Source: Myxococcota bacterium (GTDB lineage Bacteria > Myxococcota > XYA12-FULL-58-9 > JALHOP01). Taken from it: a stretch of 64,000 nt of DNA. The notes beneath the pieces are model-generated. The model was not told the origin of the DNA, made no database searches, and saw only the letters and a list, made by a program, of their open reading frames with translations. Location: positions 248,001 through 312,000 of the forward strand of contig JALHOP010000003.1 in assembly GCA_022842935.1 (NCBI GenBank). The letters are read 5' to 3'. The translations under genes and the position numbers were made by a program. Shown in pieces: positions 39,660 to 46,881 of this stretch. How positions within the stretch are numbered: the first letter of the stretch is position 1; every line of letters begins with the position of its first letter.

Positions 39660-40994
39660 CTAGTAGCCGGACGAATCGTATCGGGGTGCGTTGGCAGCCT
39701 CGAGATCGTCGAGGTACCGCCGAACTCGCCCCTGTGCGTCGTCGAGCGACGCTTGGGCCTGTCGCGAGGCGGCTTCGGCTGTCGTAGCGGCATTGTCCGC
39801 GATAGTGGCGCTGCGCTGCGCCTTCGCCGCCGCGTCTTTCGCCTGTTGCGCCGCCTTGGTAAGCGAGCTCAGGACACTGCTGTTCTTCCCAAGAGCGGCG
39901 AACTGGGCTGCGAGCTGCCTCGCCGCGTCGAACGCTGCTGCTGCCTTCGCGGCGCCGCTTGCTGCGAGGCGCTTCGCCTCCGCAGAGTGCTGGCGCGCCT
40001 CCCCGGCACGTGCCGCAGCGGTGTCGCGAAACCCAGTGATCTGTGCCACCACGGGATCCGCTCCTGCGGTGCCCCCGGACCCCAGCGCGTTGGAGACCAC
40101 CGGCAGCTTGCTGTTCGCGTTCTTCGCAGCGCCGCTGGCTGCGCGCTGGGCCGATGCCCCTGATGAGGCCTCGCTCTGGGCGCCAACGACCTCGGCCTGT
40201 GCGCTGGCGATGAGCTTAATCACGTCAGCAACCTCGCGCGGGTCGGCCGAGTTAGACAGTGCCTTGCCAAGGTTCGTCACTGCGACATCTGCGGCGGTCG
40301 CGGCACGCCCGGCGGACGTCGTGAGCCGCGCGGCCTGGTCGACGAGAGTCATCGTCGGCGCGAGGGCACTGCGCGCCAACCCCTGGCTCTGGAGTGCTGC
40401 AAGGGCACCTTGGGCGTTCTCTAGCGCCGCCTGAGCGCGCTCACTCGCCGCCCGTGCCCCAGAAGCCGCCTGGTCAGCAACGGCTTGTTGAGCTGAGGCC
40501 TTCCCCCAAGCCTCCTGGGCCTTTGCCATCGCCGCATCGGCGTCGTCGGCGCGTCCACGCGTCGCGTGGGCTATGGCCTTGCTTACCCAGTCCTGGGCCT
40601 CCTTGAGAAACGCGGCGGCAGTCTTGTTCGCGCGTTCGGCGGCCTCCTTGAGCGAGGCAGCTTCGCTAGCAGCGGATTGCACGGCTGCAACGATTTCAGA
40701 GATTTCGCTGGAAATCCCGGCTTCCTCTGCAGACGTTCCGCCAACACCAGATGCCGTCGTCGCGCCGGGCTCCTGCGTCGTGCCGATCGGCAACACTTGA
40801 ACAGGGCGGGTGCTCACGCGTGTCGAGGTGCGGGGCTCGCCGCCGTTCACCGACGTGATTCCGCGCTCCGGAGCAAGGCCAGTCGCGTGCTCGGTGAGTC
40901 CGCGGACGGGGGTGCCTGTTGATTCAGCAGCCTGGTCGGCCGTGGTGTGGGTTCCCGCCGCTGGAAAACCCGTTCGTGCTCGCGTTGCGTCCAT
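39660..40994 (-). CDS. Ala-rich coiled-coil protein
   Basis: ATG 40994 gives 444 residues; the reading frame is open to 41225, but that would overlap the divergent gene. The first 80 residues are Thr/Pro/Gly-rich and disordered. The rest is very Ala-rich helix (for example AQEAWGKASAQQAVADQAAS, AKDAAAKAQRSATIADNAAT), with Ser/Lys/Gln/Glu at other heptad positions and a short tail ending SSGY. There is no signal peptide or membrane helix. Such helices resemble apolipoprotein-like or late-embryogenesis-like Ala-rich helices; no function is claimed. It diverges from the membrane sulfatase-like gene with 109 bp between, and an IS fragment abuts its stop. Confidence 0.6.
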   Translation of the reverse strand: MDATRARTGFPAAGTHTTADQAAESTGTPVRGLTEHATGLAPERGITSVNGGEPRTSTRVSTRPVQVLPIGTTQEPGATTASGVGGTSAEEAGISSEISEIVAAVQSAASEAASLKEAAERANKTAAAFLKEAQDWVSKAIAHATRGRADDADAAMAKAQEAWGKASAQQAVADQAASGARAASERAQAALENAQGALAALQSQGLARSALAPTMTLVDQAARLTTSAGRAATAADVAVTNLGKALSNSADPREVADVIKLIASAQAEVVGAQSEASSGASAQRAASGAAKNANSKLPVVSNALGSGGTAGADPVVAQITGFRDTAAARAGEARQHSAEAKRLAASGAAKAAAAFDAARQLAAQFAALGKNSSVLSSLTKAAQQAKDAAAKAQRSATIADNAATTAEAASRQAQASLDDAQGRVRRYLDDLEAANAPRYDSSGY

Positions 40995-41103
40995 TGGGCT
41001 ACACGCTCCCTTGCGTTGCAGCATTAACTCGAATCGTAGCACGTGGTTCGGCGCCGGCCCTGACCGGGTGTCGGTCTTGTCTAGGGTTCGGCCCTGCAAG
41101 AAG

Positions 41104-44094
41104 ATGCGCTCCGTGACCCTTGGCACCGCGTTCCTTTGGACACTCGCCTGGGTGATGACCTGGTCGGCCGTGGACCTTGGGATGAGCGCGTGGATCCTGG
41201 CACACGAGCTGCCGCCTTCTGTCATGACGCGTAAGAACGACGGTGGTCACAGTCGGGCTCTAGCCGTTTCGTTTCTTTTTCGGCTCGCCGGGTTCGTGGT
41301 GACGCTGGCGTTGGTGCTCGCGGGTTTGCTCCTGCTGTTCGAGGTTCGTCGAGTGGGCATGTTCCTGGTCCTGCTCACGAGCTACGTCTTCGTCTACAAC
41401 GCGGTGCAGAATCCGCAGATTTTCGACGAGTACGCTTGGTTGCGCGGGAGCGTGCGCTGGTGCGCGCGCAGGCTTGGACCCGGTGTCGCGGTGGGCGTTG
41501 GCTTTGCCACCTTGCTCCTGCTCAACCTCGAGCTCGCGAGTGCAAGCTCACAGCACGCTGCGCGGGTTGCCGCTGCGGTGCTCATCGACGGCGCCCTCGC
41601 GTACTACCTCATCTTTGTCCAAACGTACGCTGTGCCGCGCCGCCGGCGCCCGGAGCCTCCCGCTCAAAGTCGACCCGATGACGAAAGGCTCAACCTCATC
41701 ATGATCGGCGTCGACTCGCTTCGACGCGACGTGGTGGAGAGCTATTGCGCCAAGCACCCAGATGGTGTCCTCGCCAAGCTGCTCGCCGAGAGTACGTGGT
41801 TTGCGAACACCGTCGCGCCCATCGGGCGGACCTTCCCGGCTCTCATGTCGATCTTTTCAGCGAAGAATCCAGTCGAGCATGGGATCCGTGATGCTCTGTC
41901 GTCAGCGATCCTCGAGGGCGACGCGATTCTCAGAGGGTCTCCTACTTGGCGACTGCGTCACGAGCATGGCTACCAGACCCACGTTGCCATCGACGACTCC
42001 AAGTTTGCGTACTTCCGTGGTGGTGAAACCTTCAACTCCAACCGAGCGCCAAAGCCGGGCATCGGCACACATCTGCTGCCCATCGTGTTTCGCAACAAGA
42101 TCTTCTTTGCGCTGCTCAACAATCGGCTCGGCTTCGCGTTGTTTCCAGAGATCAAGAACAATGCGGCGTTCTTTTTTGCGTACAAGCTGGGCCACTTCAC
42201 TGATGAGGCGCGCGGAGATCTTGCGCGCCTCGCGGCCGGACCGAAGCCGTTCTTCGGGATGTTCCATTCGTGCGGACTGCACTGGCCAGGGAGTGCGGCA
42301 TACCCGTACTACCCGCGTGACGGGCACCCGCCGAAGGATAGCCTCGCGTTCGGATACATGTCCGGCTGGATGCGCGTCGTTGATGCTCGGCTGCGGCCAC
42401 CCGACAAGACGCGCTTGGCTTACAATCGACGGCTCTACGAGCTCGGCGCGGCGATGGTCATCGAGCGTTTCGTTGAACCGCTCCTTGTAGATCTCGAAGC
42501 GTCGGGTCTGCTCGAACGGTCGATGGTGGTCTTCTACTCCGACCACGCCGAGGCGCTGGGTTCGAGCGCCCCGTTGCCAGTGGGTAAGGTACCGACGCAC
42601 GGGACGAGCCTGCTCTGGGACGATGACTCAGTCGAGGAAACGGTGCTGGCAATTCGTTTGCCAAGAGAGCGCCGCGCCAAGCTCCCGCATTCGCGACGCT
42701 GTGATCAGGCTGGTACGATCGATATCCTGCCGACGTTTCTGGAGGTCGCGGGGTTTGCTTGCGAGCAAGTCGATGGGCGCTCGCTACTCGAGCACAGCTC
42801 CACGCGGCTCTATATCAGCGAAACAGCGTTGTGGCTGCGGGAGGCTTTCGCGGAGCAGTTGATCGCGAAGGTGTGGAGACCCGCGACGCTCTACCGCCTC
42901 GAGCCGAGGACCGGCGAGCTCTACCTCGCCCCGGAGTTCGCTCGCCACCTCATTAGCACCAAGCAGCGCGCCATCTATCGCGAAGGACACAGGCTTACGC
43001 TCTACCCCACGTTGTATGGCTACCGCGTTGCTCAGGAGCGCCTAGCAGGCGCTGCCGATGCGACACTCGACCGTGGTGCGCTGCTTGACCAACTACTGGC
43101 GCGTTTCGCGGGCGATGCGCGCGAAGGCCTACTACCTGAGTTTTCGGGCCTCGATGTTGCGACAGGATGTCTAGACTGGATCGAGCTGAGCAAGCCACCC
43201 AGGTCGTCGTTGCTGGGTCTGCAACGTGCCGTCGAGCTCGTCTATCGCTACCACCACATTGACCATGCGCTCGCCGCTTTCGCGGACCTTGCGACCGACG
43301 AGAACGAAAACGTTGCGATTCGCACTAGCGCCTTCGAGTACTTGCTCGTCGTCCTGTTGCTGACGTCCCGCCGCGACTTGAGCCTGCAGGCGATCCTCAA
43401 AGCGTACACCCTGCCGCGTCTCGTTGAGTACATCGATCCCCACGAACGGGCGCGCTTGCTTCGCATGCGGCGTCGATTGCTCAATGCATTCGAAAACGCG
43501 CTCGGCGGGACCGCCATCCCCGAACCGGATCCTCGACAAGTGTCGCCAGAGAGCCACGTGTTCGAGGCCTACCGACAGCTTGAAGCCATGATGAATGCCG
43601 GCGATGGCCACACCGAAACCGCTCGACGACTGCTAAATGCAATCCGGAGCCACCGCGAGTTCGCGCTGGTTGAGCTCAGCCTCGCTCTCCTCGAGGAAGC
43701 GCAACGACTGAGCTTCGAGGTCAACGCTGCTGAGCTCACCAGTGACCACTTTCGTGGTCTTGAGCACCTAACCGATTGGCATCGCGACCGGGGCCTCGTC
43801 CACGAACCCGGTGAAGCGATTGCGCGAGCGCTACAAGTGGCGCGCCACCATCGCCGCAACGACCTGGTCATCGAGATTGCTAAGGACCTATTCCGCCGGC
43901 CACTAATCCCTCTTCGTGTAGGTCTAACGCAGCTCTTCCCTGCTCTTGACGCGATAGCTGACGAACGAGGAGTCGAGGGTAACGCACGATTCAGGTTGCT
44001 CCTCGCCAACACGGGAACCGGTCCTCACGTGGCGCTCGACTCGGTGCGGCGACGCGAGAGGGAGATTTTTGAGATGATTGAGGCGGCGGTGTGA
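41104..44094 (+). CDS. Membrane-bound sulfatase/phosphatase-superfamily protein
   Basis: From ATG 41104 the product is 996 residues. About five hydrophobic segments span residues 5-185 (for example FLFRLAGFVVTLALVLAGLL, VGVGFATLLLLNLELA). The alkaline-phosphatase-superfamily domain starts near 196 with LIMIGVDSLRRDVVESY. The metal Asp is in VDS, the likely nucleophile is Thr in IGRTFPALMS (as in LtaS/EptA-type enzymes, not Cys/Ser as in sulfatases), the second metal pair is in FYSDHAEALG, and the last His is in THGTSL. Residues 665-996 are an extra helical domain. It could transfer or cleave a phosphate ester of lipid or polysaccharide at the membrane; the substrate is unknown. It lies in the accessory region next to the repeats. 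Confidence 0.75.
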   Translation: MRSVTLGTAFLWTLAWVMTWSAVDLGMSAWILAHELPPSVMTRKNDGGHSRALAVSFLFRLAGFVVTLALVLAGLLLLFEVRRVGMFLVLLTSYVFVYNAVQNPQIFDEYAWLRGSVRWCARRLGPGVAVGVGFATLLLLNLELASASSQHAARVAAAVLIDGALAYYLIFVQTYAVPRRRRPEPPAQSRPDDERLNLIMIGVDSLRRDVVESYCAKHPDGVLAKLLAESTWFANTVAPIGRTFPALMSIFSAKNPVEHGIRDALSSAILEGDAILRGSPTWRLRHEHGYQTHVAIDDSKFAYFRGGETFNSNRAPKPGIGTHLLPIVFRNKIFFALLNNRLGFALFPEIKNNAAFFFAYKLGHFTDEARGDLARLAAGPKPFFGMFHSCGLHWPGSAAYPYYPRDGHPPKDSLAFGYMSGWMRVVDARLRPPDKTRLAYNRRLYELGAAMVIERFVEPLLVDLEASGLLERSMVVFYSDHAEALGSSAPLPVGKVPTHGTSLLWDDDSVEETVLAIRLPRERRAKLPHSRRCDQAGTIDILPTFLEVAGFACEQVDGRSLLEHSSTRLYISETALWLREAFAEQLIAKVWRPATLYRLEPRTGELYLAPEFARHLISTKQRAIYREGHRLTLYPTLYGYRVAQERLAGAADATLDRGALLDQLLARFAGDAREGLLPEFSGLDVATGCLDWIELSKPPRSSLLGLQRAVELVYRYHHIDHALAAFADLATDENENVAIRTSAFEYLLVVLLLTSRRDLSLQAILKAYTLPRLVEYIDPHERARLLRMRRRLLNAFENALGGTAIPEPDPRQVSPESHVFEAYRQLEAMMNAGDGHTETARRLLNAIRSHREFALVELSLALLEEAQRLSFEVNAAELTSDHFRGLEHLTDWHRDRGLVHEPGEAIARALQVARHHRRNDLVIEIAKDLFRRPLIPLRVGLTQLFPALDAIADERGVEGNARFRLLLANTGTGPHVALDSVRRREREIFEMIEAAV

Positions 44095-44101
44095 GCCGTG
44101 G

Positions 44102-44198
44102 AGTGGAGATCGACCAGAGTGGAGATCGACCAGGAGTGGAGATCGACCAGGAACATTCTCTTCTTGAGTGGAGATCGACCAGGAACATTCTCTTCTTG
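44102..44198 (+). repeat. Tandem 16/32-bp repeats next to the transposase gene
   Basis: AGTGGAGATCGACCAG occurs at 44102-44117, 44118-44133, 44135-44150 and 44167-44182. The last two copies are each followed by GAACATTCTCTTCTTG, making a perfect 32-bp tandem duplication (44135-44166 and 44167-44198). The array begins seven bases after the sulfatase-like stop. A copy of its core lies inverted beyond the transposase gene at 45536-45549. Confidence 0.9.
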
Positions 44199-44400
44199 GG
44201 CCCCTGTCAGGCTTGGGGAAGAGGCGAAAAAACGGGACCCCGTTCCGTCGACTCGACCGACCAAGGACATGTGCAGGGGAACGCGCCGCAAACGGGCTGA
44301 CTGCTAGCCGACCGCCGCCGCTTGAGTCGATTTACATCCCGTCAGTTTCAAGAACCGTCATTGCGGACGCATGCAACATTTCTCTTGAGCACCGATCTCG

Positions 44401-45420
44401 CTAGGCGGACAGCCTCTCTGGTTCTGGTGGCGTCAGCTCCGTCCATCGTCCCGGAGCGAAAGAGCCCGACGGATACCCAGTTTGTCGCTTGTCCGCCATC
44501 GAGGCCTCGCGAAAACGAAACTGAAATGACCAGTATCTTCGAAGAAAGCTAAGGGTTTGCGGGGCCGTTTGCGAGGCCCAGCAGATCATGCGCCGCCTCT
44601 GTGTCCACCAGGGCGGGGGAGGCAAGCTCGCGCGGCGGTCGCGCGGCAGGCTGCAGATTCGGCGGGTCCCCATCGGCCGCGCACCAGCGCGCGCGATAGA
44701 ACCCTCAGCTACGATCTCCTCGATAAGGCCTTGGACTCGGTTTTGGCGCGCCGAAGCATTCAAGTGCGCCCAACACGGAATCGGAGCGAAAGACAAGCTG
44801 TACTTGATGCAGTAGTCTTCTTTCGCGACAGCTCGAGGTCGGAGCTTTCGAGTCTCTCGGTCCACTGCGCGCCCGTAAGCCGTGGCATTGAACCACACAC
44901 CCTCCAATGGGGTCGCTGTGGCCAGTGGCCTCGCGCAGTGTACGCCGGGCCACTCTTCCGGGCGAGCGACGAGGCCTTCCTTAACGCCCTGGCTTAGGAT
45001 GTACCTGAAGCAGTTCAGTTGGCTTTCGGGTGTTGGCAGAGCCGTTGCGATAAACTCGTGCCACATCGGTCCGCACCAGCCGACTCCTGGATGATGCCCC
45101 CACCGACGAGAGATCTCGCGCTTGATGAACCCGACGAAGGCCGACACCTGCGTCGGCGGGCCTTGAAGCATCAGGTGTATGTGGTTTGAGAGGAATGCTG
45201 CCGCGTAGAGCTGAACCTCACCAAAGTGTTCGAGCGCGCGACCAACCACTCCGACAATGATGGAGTTTAGTTCCTCGCACGGTCGCAACAGATGTCTGCC
45301 TTGAAAGACGCGCGAGATCACATGGATAGGGACTTCCGCCTCGACGTAGCGGGCGTGGTGACACCCCGTAAATACGCCTGTGACGTGACGGACAACAGAC
45401 TCGTTCGACGTTGCGCTCAT
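44401..45420 (-). CDS. Y1 (HUH) transposase, REP-associated type
   Basis: The 339-residue product has the single-strand Y1 transposase fold. VHVISRVFQG-like strands lead to the HUH metal motif at SNHIHLML (His80, His82), and FRYILSQGVKEGLV carries the likely catalytic Tyr140, followed by the usual 'RPEEWPG'. These features match REP-associated tyrosine transposases (RAYTs), which share ancestry with IS200/IS605. Beyond residue 210 is a basic extension of about 130 residues that is not part of the core. The gene lies between tandem repeats (44102-44198) and an inverted copy of the same core (45536-45549). No ribosome site is evident. Confidence 0.85.
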   Translation of the reverse strand: MSATSNESVVRHVTGVFTGCHHARYVEAEVPIHVISRVFQGRHLLRPCEELNSIIVGVVGRALEHFGEVQLYAAAFLSNHIHLMLQGPPTQVSAFVGFIKREISRRWGHHPGVGWCGPMWHEFIATALPTPESQLNCFRYILSQGVKEGLVARPEEWPGVHCARPLATATPLEGVWFNATAYGRAVDRETRKLRPRAVAKEDYCIKYSLSFAPIPCWAHLNASARQNRVQGLIEEIVAEGSIARAGARPMGTRRICSLPRDRRASLPPPPWWTQRRRMICWASQTAPQTLSFLRRYWSFQFRFREASMADKRQTGYPSGSFAPGRWTELTPPEPERLSA

Positions 45421-45535
45421 CTACCGGCGACGTTGCATTGCCCGTGCCGTGCCAAACGACGACGATGGCGGCTTCCGCTGCCACTCGCGGCTCACATGTC
45501 TCAAGTCGCGACGCGAAAATTGACTCCGGGGAAAG

Positions 45536-45549
45536 TTCCTGGTCGATCT
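45536..45549 (-). repeat. Inverted copy of the transposase-flanking repeat core
   Basis: TTCCTGGTCGATCT is the exact reverse complement of AGATCGACCAGGAA, the 14-bp core of the array at 44102-44198 (for example 44141-44154). It lies 116 bp upstream of the transposase start and six bases from the stop of the phosphodiesterase gene, so the two mark the ends of a probable mobile unit. Confidence 0.75.
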
Positions 45550-45555
45550 ATTCTC

Positions 45556-46881
45556 TTAGTTGCTCAGCTTGCGCCCAACCAGCCCCCCCGGCGCTGCAAC
45601 GCCAAGCCACTCGAGCACCGTAGGCGCGATGTCATACAGCGTTGCCCCATCCCCTTCGATTCGATGATTCGACATCAGTACGCCATAGCGGTCGTGATTC
45701 GCATCGTCTGGGCCAGTGTCGTTACTCGCTACCATGAGTGTTGGATGGCCGAGCGAGCCTAGACAGCGGACGTGCAGGTCGCTGGCCTCGACCTGTAGAG
45801 CGGGCGCGAAGCCTCGGGTTGCGTTGTAGATGGCGCTGGGGGCGGCGAAGCGCAGCTTGACCGGCGCGGGCGTCATGCTAATGGCGGCAAGGAGCGCAGC
45901 CACGTCAGCTTCCGCAACTATCCCTTGGGGCTCGCGGCCGCGCTGATTGACATGGATACGTCCTACATATCCGCCGTCCGCCCAAGCGGACGTGTGCGAC
46001 CAGTCGACCTGCTCGGGCGTGAAAGAGCCACGTGCGCCTGGACGCAGCGACAAGAACCCGTGGGTCGCTAGCCAATCGTTGATGGCGAACCCGCCGTACA
46101 TACCACACGCACCATGATCGGAGACGACGAGGAGGCGATCGTCCGAGCGCAAAAGAGAGAACAGGCGTTCGAGCTCGCGATCGAGAGCGCGATAAACCTC
46201 AAGGATCGCGTTCTCGAGCCCGTGTCCAGCAACATGTGCCGGGTGTTCGCTATCGAGGTAGCGCCAGAAAGCGTGATGAGCGCGGTCGCTGCCCATCTCA
46301 ACCATCATGAACAAGTCCCAGTCGTCTTTGGCCAGCCACTGACGGGCGAGGGCGAAGCGGCGTTCGACCATGCCAAGGATGTCAGCCAACAGGTTCGCTT
46401 TAGCGTCCTCGGTGACGCGAAATTCGGGCGTATCGAAGACGTAGCCGTGGCGGCGGATGTCGTCGCTCAGGCTCTCTGGGTGGGTGAATATCGCCTCGTC
46501 GTCGGGCGTCAAAAAACACGAGATGAGAGCCCCGTCGAGCGCCGGCGCCGGATACGTGGGAGGCACACCGATGATGCGCGCCCGAAGACCTGCACGGTTG
46601 GCAAGTGCCCAAAGTGGCGGTGCTGTGAGCGCGAGCGACGAAGCTAGCCGGCGTGACCGGTAGTCCCAAGCGGAGCGATCATGAAAACCATACAGCCCGA
46701 GCATGCCTGGGTCGACGCCGGTGACCATGCACGCCCACGCTGGCACCGTGATTGGGGGCTCGCAGCTCGCCAAGCGGCTGCGCGTGATGAGGCTCGTCAG
46801 TGCGGGAAGCTCACCGGCAAAGCGCTCGAGTGCGAGGCGCGGTTCGAGGCCGTCGAGTCCAATGATAACGACGCGGCTCAG
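45556..46881 (-). CDS. Alkaline-phosphatase-superfamily phosphodiesterase, non-canonical start
   Basis: The reading frame encodes a type I phosphodiesterase/nucleotide pyrophosphatase-like protein. The first metal-binding strand RVVIIGLDGLEPRLALERF lies upstream of the only canonical start, TTG 46773. Between the in-frame stop at 46978-46980 and that TTG there is no ATG, GTG or TTG. A CTG at 46881 would give 441 residues (LSRVVIIGLDGL) and keep the Asp, so I place the start there. The likely Thr nucleophile is in PPITVPAWACMVTG, and other metal residues are in MGSDRAHHAFW, VVSDHGACG and SNHRIEGDG. Starting at TTG 46773 would remove the first metal ligand. A lost start is the alternative. Confidence 0.7.
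   Translation of the reverse strand: MSRVVIIGLDGLEPRLALERFAGELPALTSLITRSRLASCEPPITVPAWACMVTGVDPGMLGLYGFHDRSAWDYRSRRLASSLALTAPPLWALANRAGLRARIIGVPPTYPAPALDGALISCFLTPDDEAIFTHPESLSDDIRRHGYVFDTPEFRVTEDAKANLLADILGMVERRFALARQWLAKDDWDLFMMVEMGSDRAHHAFWRYLDSEHPAHVAGHGLENAILEVYRALDRELERLFSLLRSDDRLLVVSDHGACGMYGGFAINDWLATHGFLSLRPGARGSFTPEQVDWSHTSAWADGGYVGRIHVNQRGREPQGIVAEADVAALLAAISMTPAPVKLRFAAPSAIYNATRGFAPALQVEASDLHVRCLGSLGHPTLMVASNDTGPDDANHDRYGVLMSNHRIEGDGATLYDIAPTVLEWLGVAAPGGLVGRKLSN

Follow-up and report, generated by a model that had tools for sequence, protein, structure and literature searches.

The segment from 44102 to 45549 of the window (the whole 64,000-nt stretch of DNA analysed) is very probably one copy of an insertion-sequence-like element of the TIRYT type. 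The arrangement that a first-pass annotation had noticed here, a Y1/HUH transposase gene with tandem repeats on one side and their inverse on the other, is real and more general than the window shows. TIRYTs, as named by Di Nocera et al. (2013), are RAYT-like genes lying between non-palindromic inverted repeats; the repeats may form families, dimers and clusters, and the genes predominate in genomes without REPs (PMC3733652). Most belong to TnpAREP subclass 2.1 and carry a C-terminal extension related to helix-turn-helix (HTH) domains (PMC6006769). The overall explanation that we favour, and that we judge quite probably the best, joins this identity to mobility and to an account of the tandem array. 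The tandem units, with their position-specific edges, are its new and testable part.

The locus is laid out as follows, X being the flank part of a tandem unit.

40810–44094, + strand: left neighbour gene, sulfatase/alkaline-phosphatase superfamily (PF00884, E 1.5e-8); stop 7 bp short of the first repeat
44102–44117, + strand: short (S) unit 1, X (AGTGGAGA) plus TCGACCAG (direct sequence)
44118–44134, + strand: short (S) unit 2, X plus TCGACCAGG (sequence)
44135–44166, + strand: long (L) unit 1, X plus TCGACCAGGAACATTCTCTTCTTG (sequence)
44167–44198, + strand: long (L) unit 2, the innermost copy and 3′-side terminal repeat (sequence)
44199–44400, no strand: spacer from the 3′-side terminal repeat to the transposase gene (sequence)
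44401–45420, − strand: Y1/HUH transposase, 339 aa, with H80/H82, Y140 and a C-terminal extension of ~180 aa (profile, alignment, model)
45531–45549, − strand: 5′-side terminal repeat AGATCGACCAGGAACTTTC, present once and in the opposite orientation to the left array (sequence)
45556–46773, − strand: right neighbour gene, type I phosphodiesterase superfamily (PF01663, E 8.9e-27); stop codon 6 bp beyond the 5′-side repeat

Four tandem copies of AGTGGAGATCGACCAG start at 44102, 44118, 44135 and 44167, forming two short units (16–17 bp) and two long ones (32 bp) across 44102–44198. The perfect 32-bp duplications described earlier are present (44134–44165 and 44166–44197 are identical), giving an array of S, S, L, L in which S equals L minus ~16 nt (GAACATTCTCTTCTTG). 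On the other flank, the described inverse of the 14-bp core (TTCCTGGTCGATCT) occupies 45536–45549; if one mismatch is allowed, the match lengthens to 19 nt (45531–45549). Searching the window with the 15-mer at up to three mismatches gives 15 matches against 2.84 expected, a count reached in 0 of 100 shuffles. The repeats do sit between two convergent stop codons, at 44094 (7 bp before the first unit at 44102) and starting at 45556 (6 bp after the inverse ends at 45549), and the Y1 gene is the sole substantial gene between them. Both convergent neighbours (40810–44094 and 45556–46773) are alkaline-phosphatase superfamily members, a sulfatase (PF00884) and a type I phosphodiesterase (PF01663).

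The window transposase has the Y1 fold and its catalytic residues. The 339-aa product has no Pfam match at E 1e-3 (Y1_Tnp is weak, E 0.007) and matches NCBIfam REP_Tyr_transpos at 3e-10, below the curated cut-off (40 of 80 bits); the same family is matched by all ten aligned relatives, in which H80, H82 and Y140 are invariant. A profile of the relatives finds ISDra2 TnpA (9e-4). The AlphaFold2 model (pLDDT 78) matches ISDra2 TnpA in Foldseek with E 2.6e-4, and TnpAREP (4er8) with E 3.9e-4 and a TM-score of 0.60 on the target. The initial assignment to a Y1/HUH transposase of REP type is upheld by the family match, the invariant residues and the structural matches together. The C-terminal extension (~180 aa) gave no Pfam HTH match at E up to 10, and the model gave no convincing PDB match for it.

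Pattern searches of the source genome place the window locus in a small family. The exact 15-mer GTGGAGATCGACCAG occurs at a single place, the window locus; AGATCGACCAGGAA recurs around the C1 paralogue, and the core TCGACCAGGAACNTTC has 13 exact and 7 one-mismatch copies (20 in total, reversed control 0). That the core occurs nowhere else, which would have spoken against the first reading, is true of the exact 15-mer and untrue of the shorter forms. Two paralogues of the transposase, sharing 68% identity (on C1) and 56% (on C4) with the window copy, were found, and all three genes have the core on both sides in inverted orientation. Tandem repeats on one flank only, as had been described, hold for the window copy and fail as a general feature: at the C1 paralogue, arrays lie on either side of the gene. 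Some seven TCGACCAGGAACNTTC copies stand alone, apparently noncoding, in the form AATCGACCAGGAACCTTCT; the copy in L071 is probably coding. Stand-alone copies also lie between divergent or co-directional gene pairs, and a convergent intergenic position is no rule. A reading as a stand-alone hairpin (CCAGGAACCTTCTTGG), plausible on inspection, failed a shuffle test. At the C4 paralogue (L035:2272–4400), a PD-(D/E)XK nuclease gene (PF12705, 1.3e-17) lies inside the inverted ends, convergent with the transposase, and is possibly cargo.

Beyond the source genome, the question raised at the outset was whether the core is equally common in relatives that lack the transposase. Across a further 188 genomes from the phylum, none showed enrichment of TCGACCAGGAACNTTC. 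The repeat unit had no match among plasmids, and the double-copy pattern GTGGAGATCGACCAN{1,31}GTGGAGATCGACCA found nothing in genome or viral contigs, so the exact repeat is private to the source genome.

Homologous transposases have ends of their own. Three homologue searches supplied ~40 further loci, at which we took the best inverted match between the two flanks of each gene within a 600-bp range. Homologue loci of eight lineages give match scores of 16–20, against 7–12 in their shuffles; several homologues (for example, L084, L087 and L095) have no inverted flank repeat detectable by this comparison. The automatic test also missed the C4 paralogue, because the nuclease gene pushes its 3′-side repeat beyond 600 bp. 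Lineage cores could be read as GATTAAGCAGGAATGTGT in G001, GATCGAG[GT]AGGAACTACGATC in L083, GTCTCACCCAAATTTCT in G003, TT[AG]CGGTTCCAGGTGAAT in L098 and GGTGTCARAGRAYTCG in a set of 12–14 Mb genomes. Mapped onto the transposase tree, end type needs 12 changes against a minimum of 11; shuffles average 20.4, and none of 200 came as low. The figure is helped by near-copies from single genomes. These comparisons show that ends and transposase co-diverge in sequence.

The lineage cores are dispersed in the genomes that carry them. The G001 core has 39 copies in G001 (control 1) and 0 or 1 in five other genomes searched, and GGTGTCARAGRAYTCG has 5–98 exact copies in each of nine large genomes (reversed control 0), falling to 0–1 in six same-family genomes without a strong transposase match. 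One genome, G071, has five GGTGTCARAGRAYTCG copies and no transposase match at the strict limit. Core counts and flank matches across lineages bear out the expectation that inverted repeats of its own bound the gene, are dispersed and are enriched only alongside related transposases. On G001 contig C122, at least ten family ends fall within ~16 kb, several as inverted pairs, which suggests a hot spot or island.

Pairs of ends also occur without the gene. Dispersed inverted pairs ~80 bp apart are found among the core copies; in G001, inverted end pairs form short elements of ~100 bp, and those that we read showed no target duplication. Short elements of 52, 65 and 95 bp in G069 have near-identical interiors and unrelated outer flanks. 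Complete transposase units measure ~1083 bp. Neither two long queries against sister species nor an all-against-all search run locally returned a clean empty site, so insertion itself was never directly seen. The data join one transposase clade to its co-diverging ends and to the non-autonomous copies of 52–95 bp, which opens the origin of such repeat families to study within a single system.

Outside many of the ends, tandem units are found that join 5–9 bp of flank (X) to the first 5–10 nt of the end. Of 19 copies in the source genome, 11 have the 10-mer that spans their outer edge again in their own outer flank (cross flanks, 10 of 340); in G001, 10 of 29 do (12 of 810 cross comparisons). 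The same test mirrored onto the inner side gives 3 of 19 and 0 of 29. Counted as ends with an outer duplication, the figures are 11 of 13 (source genome) and 15 of 34 (G001). Across 37 ends of 21 transposase loci, duplicates lie outside in 17 and inside in 6, with cross comparisons at 1%. The ends in these counts, and in those for the large genomes below, are non-independent, many coming from one genome, element family or array.

The large genomes, the best-sampled lineage, allow this unit to be set against simple slippage during replication, or unequal crossing over, acting at the ends independently of the transposase, a reading that we rate a little short of an even chance. Short tandem repeats do expand in this way, the two L units in the window are identical, and tandem REPIN or REP clusters that include flanking DNA have already been described (PMC3116915; PMC3733652). 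What slippage accommodates less readily is position. An outer duplicate is present at 91 of 229 large-genome ends against 30 of 3000 random positions (40% versus 1%; the random background for outer duplication ranges over 0.16–1%); X measures 6–8 nt in 77 of the 91, and the inner edge falls exactly at GGTGTC|A in 55. Isolated ends have the duplicate outside in 17 of 72 cases and inside in 1 of 72. Edge recurrence, outer bias and the excess over random positions argue for a positioned starting event, part of the recurrence being open to explanation by inheritance.

Other lineages have edges of their own: ACACC|T, ACACATC|T, GGTTCC|A, AAGTC|T, GATCGACCA(G)| and GATTA|. In several lineages the S unit ends at a C|A or C|T step; as the G001 edge is GATTA| and that of the source genome lies 1–2 nt past C|A, this rule is not universal. 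We found no description of partial-end tandem units with a fixed edge in the literature texts covered (figures, most subscription journals and preprints aside).

The nature of X bears on a further alternative, that X is the outermost sequence of the element or a target motif, and that the S units are cleavage-site or target-site arrays carried along with it. This is a real possibility, though one we would not bet on. In the large genomes X partly tracks the element family, with a lineage consensus CCGGRGAA, and GGGGAA adjoins most copies of the 52-bp element despite unrelated outer flanks. X in the source genome and G001, by contrast, differs at nearly every locus, recurring in its own flank far more than in others at the frequencies given above, and some duplications contain locus-specific bases. 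An element in G073 (L174:762–1829) lies directly against a truncated IS gene (which looks IS66-like) at GCGGCAG. Intact copies of this IS lack X; the IS stretch is found seven times in G069, and the other flank of the element is not the same IS. Since X is missing from the intact IS and follows the family, it may be element-carried at L174 and in part in the large genomes. We rejected the idea that X is a palindromic target: left and right X of one element agree at 3.56 of 8 positions, those of different elements at 3.64 of 8.

The mechanism that we propose instead ties the array to the end reaction. The transposase would most likely act on single-stranded DNA, recognising a lineage-specific end (here GATCGACCAGGAACNTTC), cutting with Y140 and moving both its own unit and the short non-autonomous copies. 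Judging from the sequences, the inner edge of the tandem unit may mark the cleavage site; a staggered or abortive cut, filled in and rejoined, could then duplicate the stretch between that cut and a putative second break 5–9 bp outside, after which arrays would grow and shrink by slippage. We put forward this cut-linked duplication, followed by slippage, tentatively, as somewhat less than evenly likely. The wider idea that TIRYT enzymes write tandem repeats, each end reaction adding one unit of flank plus end start, is more doubtful again. Were it true, one could read from the S/L arrays where the enzyme cleaves and how active it has been, and cleavage or target sites would accumulate in arrays around the element.

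The TnpAREP enzymes of Escherichia coli, Stenotrophomonas and Marinomonas cleave at C|T, to which the Marinomonas enzyme adds C|A, and the cut lies on the 5′ or the 3′ side of the substrate (PMC8266576); no TIRYT biochemistry or cleavage site was found in the literature examined. The fixed edges (GGTGTC|A, ACACC|T, GGTTCC|A and GATCGACCA|) predict a cleavage site for each lineage from sequence, in a form that oligonucleotides can test. For the window transposase, cleavage is predicted within 1–2 nt of GATCGACC|AG, and for the large-genome enzyme at GGTGTC|A.

The TIRYT/TIRtron type shares with the window element a RAYT-like Y1 transposase, a long C-terminal extension and non-palindromic terminal inverted repeats framing the gene. 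It differs in its GGGGWSAS motif (common, not obligatory), which is absent from the left array and the right repeat of the window, and in that fixed-edge tandem S/L arrays are absent from the published text examined, figures aside (PMC3733652); the HTH-like domain of its extension was not detected here in the Pfam search. IS200/IS605 members (IS608 and ISDra2) share the Y1 HUH fold and active-site motif and provide the best structural matches. Their transposases are ~130–150 aa rather than 339 aa; the ends here are inverted, and a fold test against shuffles did not find a subterminal hairpin.

A true RAYT–REP unit, with the repeats acting as REP hairpins recognised by a RAYT, was the original proposal, and we now consider it improbable. 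The likeness to REPtrons and REPINs is considerable: a REP-type family match, a dispersed repeat set in inverted orientation on the two sides of a Y1 transposase, short doublets of inverted copies (the ~80-bp pairs being REPIN-like), tandem clusters that include flank, and co-divergence of repeat and transposase (PMC2817692, PMC3116915). The ends here are, however, non-palindromic and without a GTAG-type head, the short tandem unit is only part of the end, and single source-genome ends fold no better than shuffles, an advantage appearing in the inverted pair alone (z −7.4). RAYT–REP repeats usually exceed 100 copies; here there are 20 at one mismatch in the source genome, mostly adjoining transposase genes, and 5–98 in the large-genome relatives. 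Because single ends have no hairpin advantage over shuffles and no GTAG head, we assign the element to the TIRYT type, and the RAYT–REP reading is largely refuted.

IS21 ends carry several direct repeats, as one end does here, and the idea of remnant IS21-like ends with the Y1 gene as a chance neighbour has a negligible probability, as the same core frames three Y1 paralogues, lineage cores frame Y1 relatives and Y1 is the sole substantial gene inside.

Two further repeat arrangements were seen near the homologues. Upstream of the G003 transposase, L038:1061–1158 holds a separate CCGATGA-like tandem array of 7/14 bp, unrelated to the ends of that element. In the 3′ flank of L083, a stretch of ~250 bp holds a stack of several end copies, pointing either way, together with GAAGCCCGATCG units.
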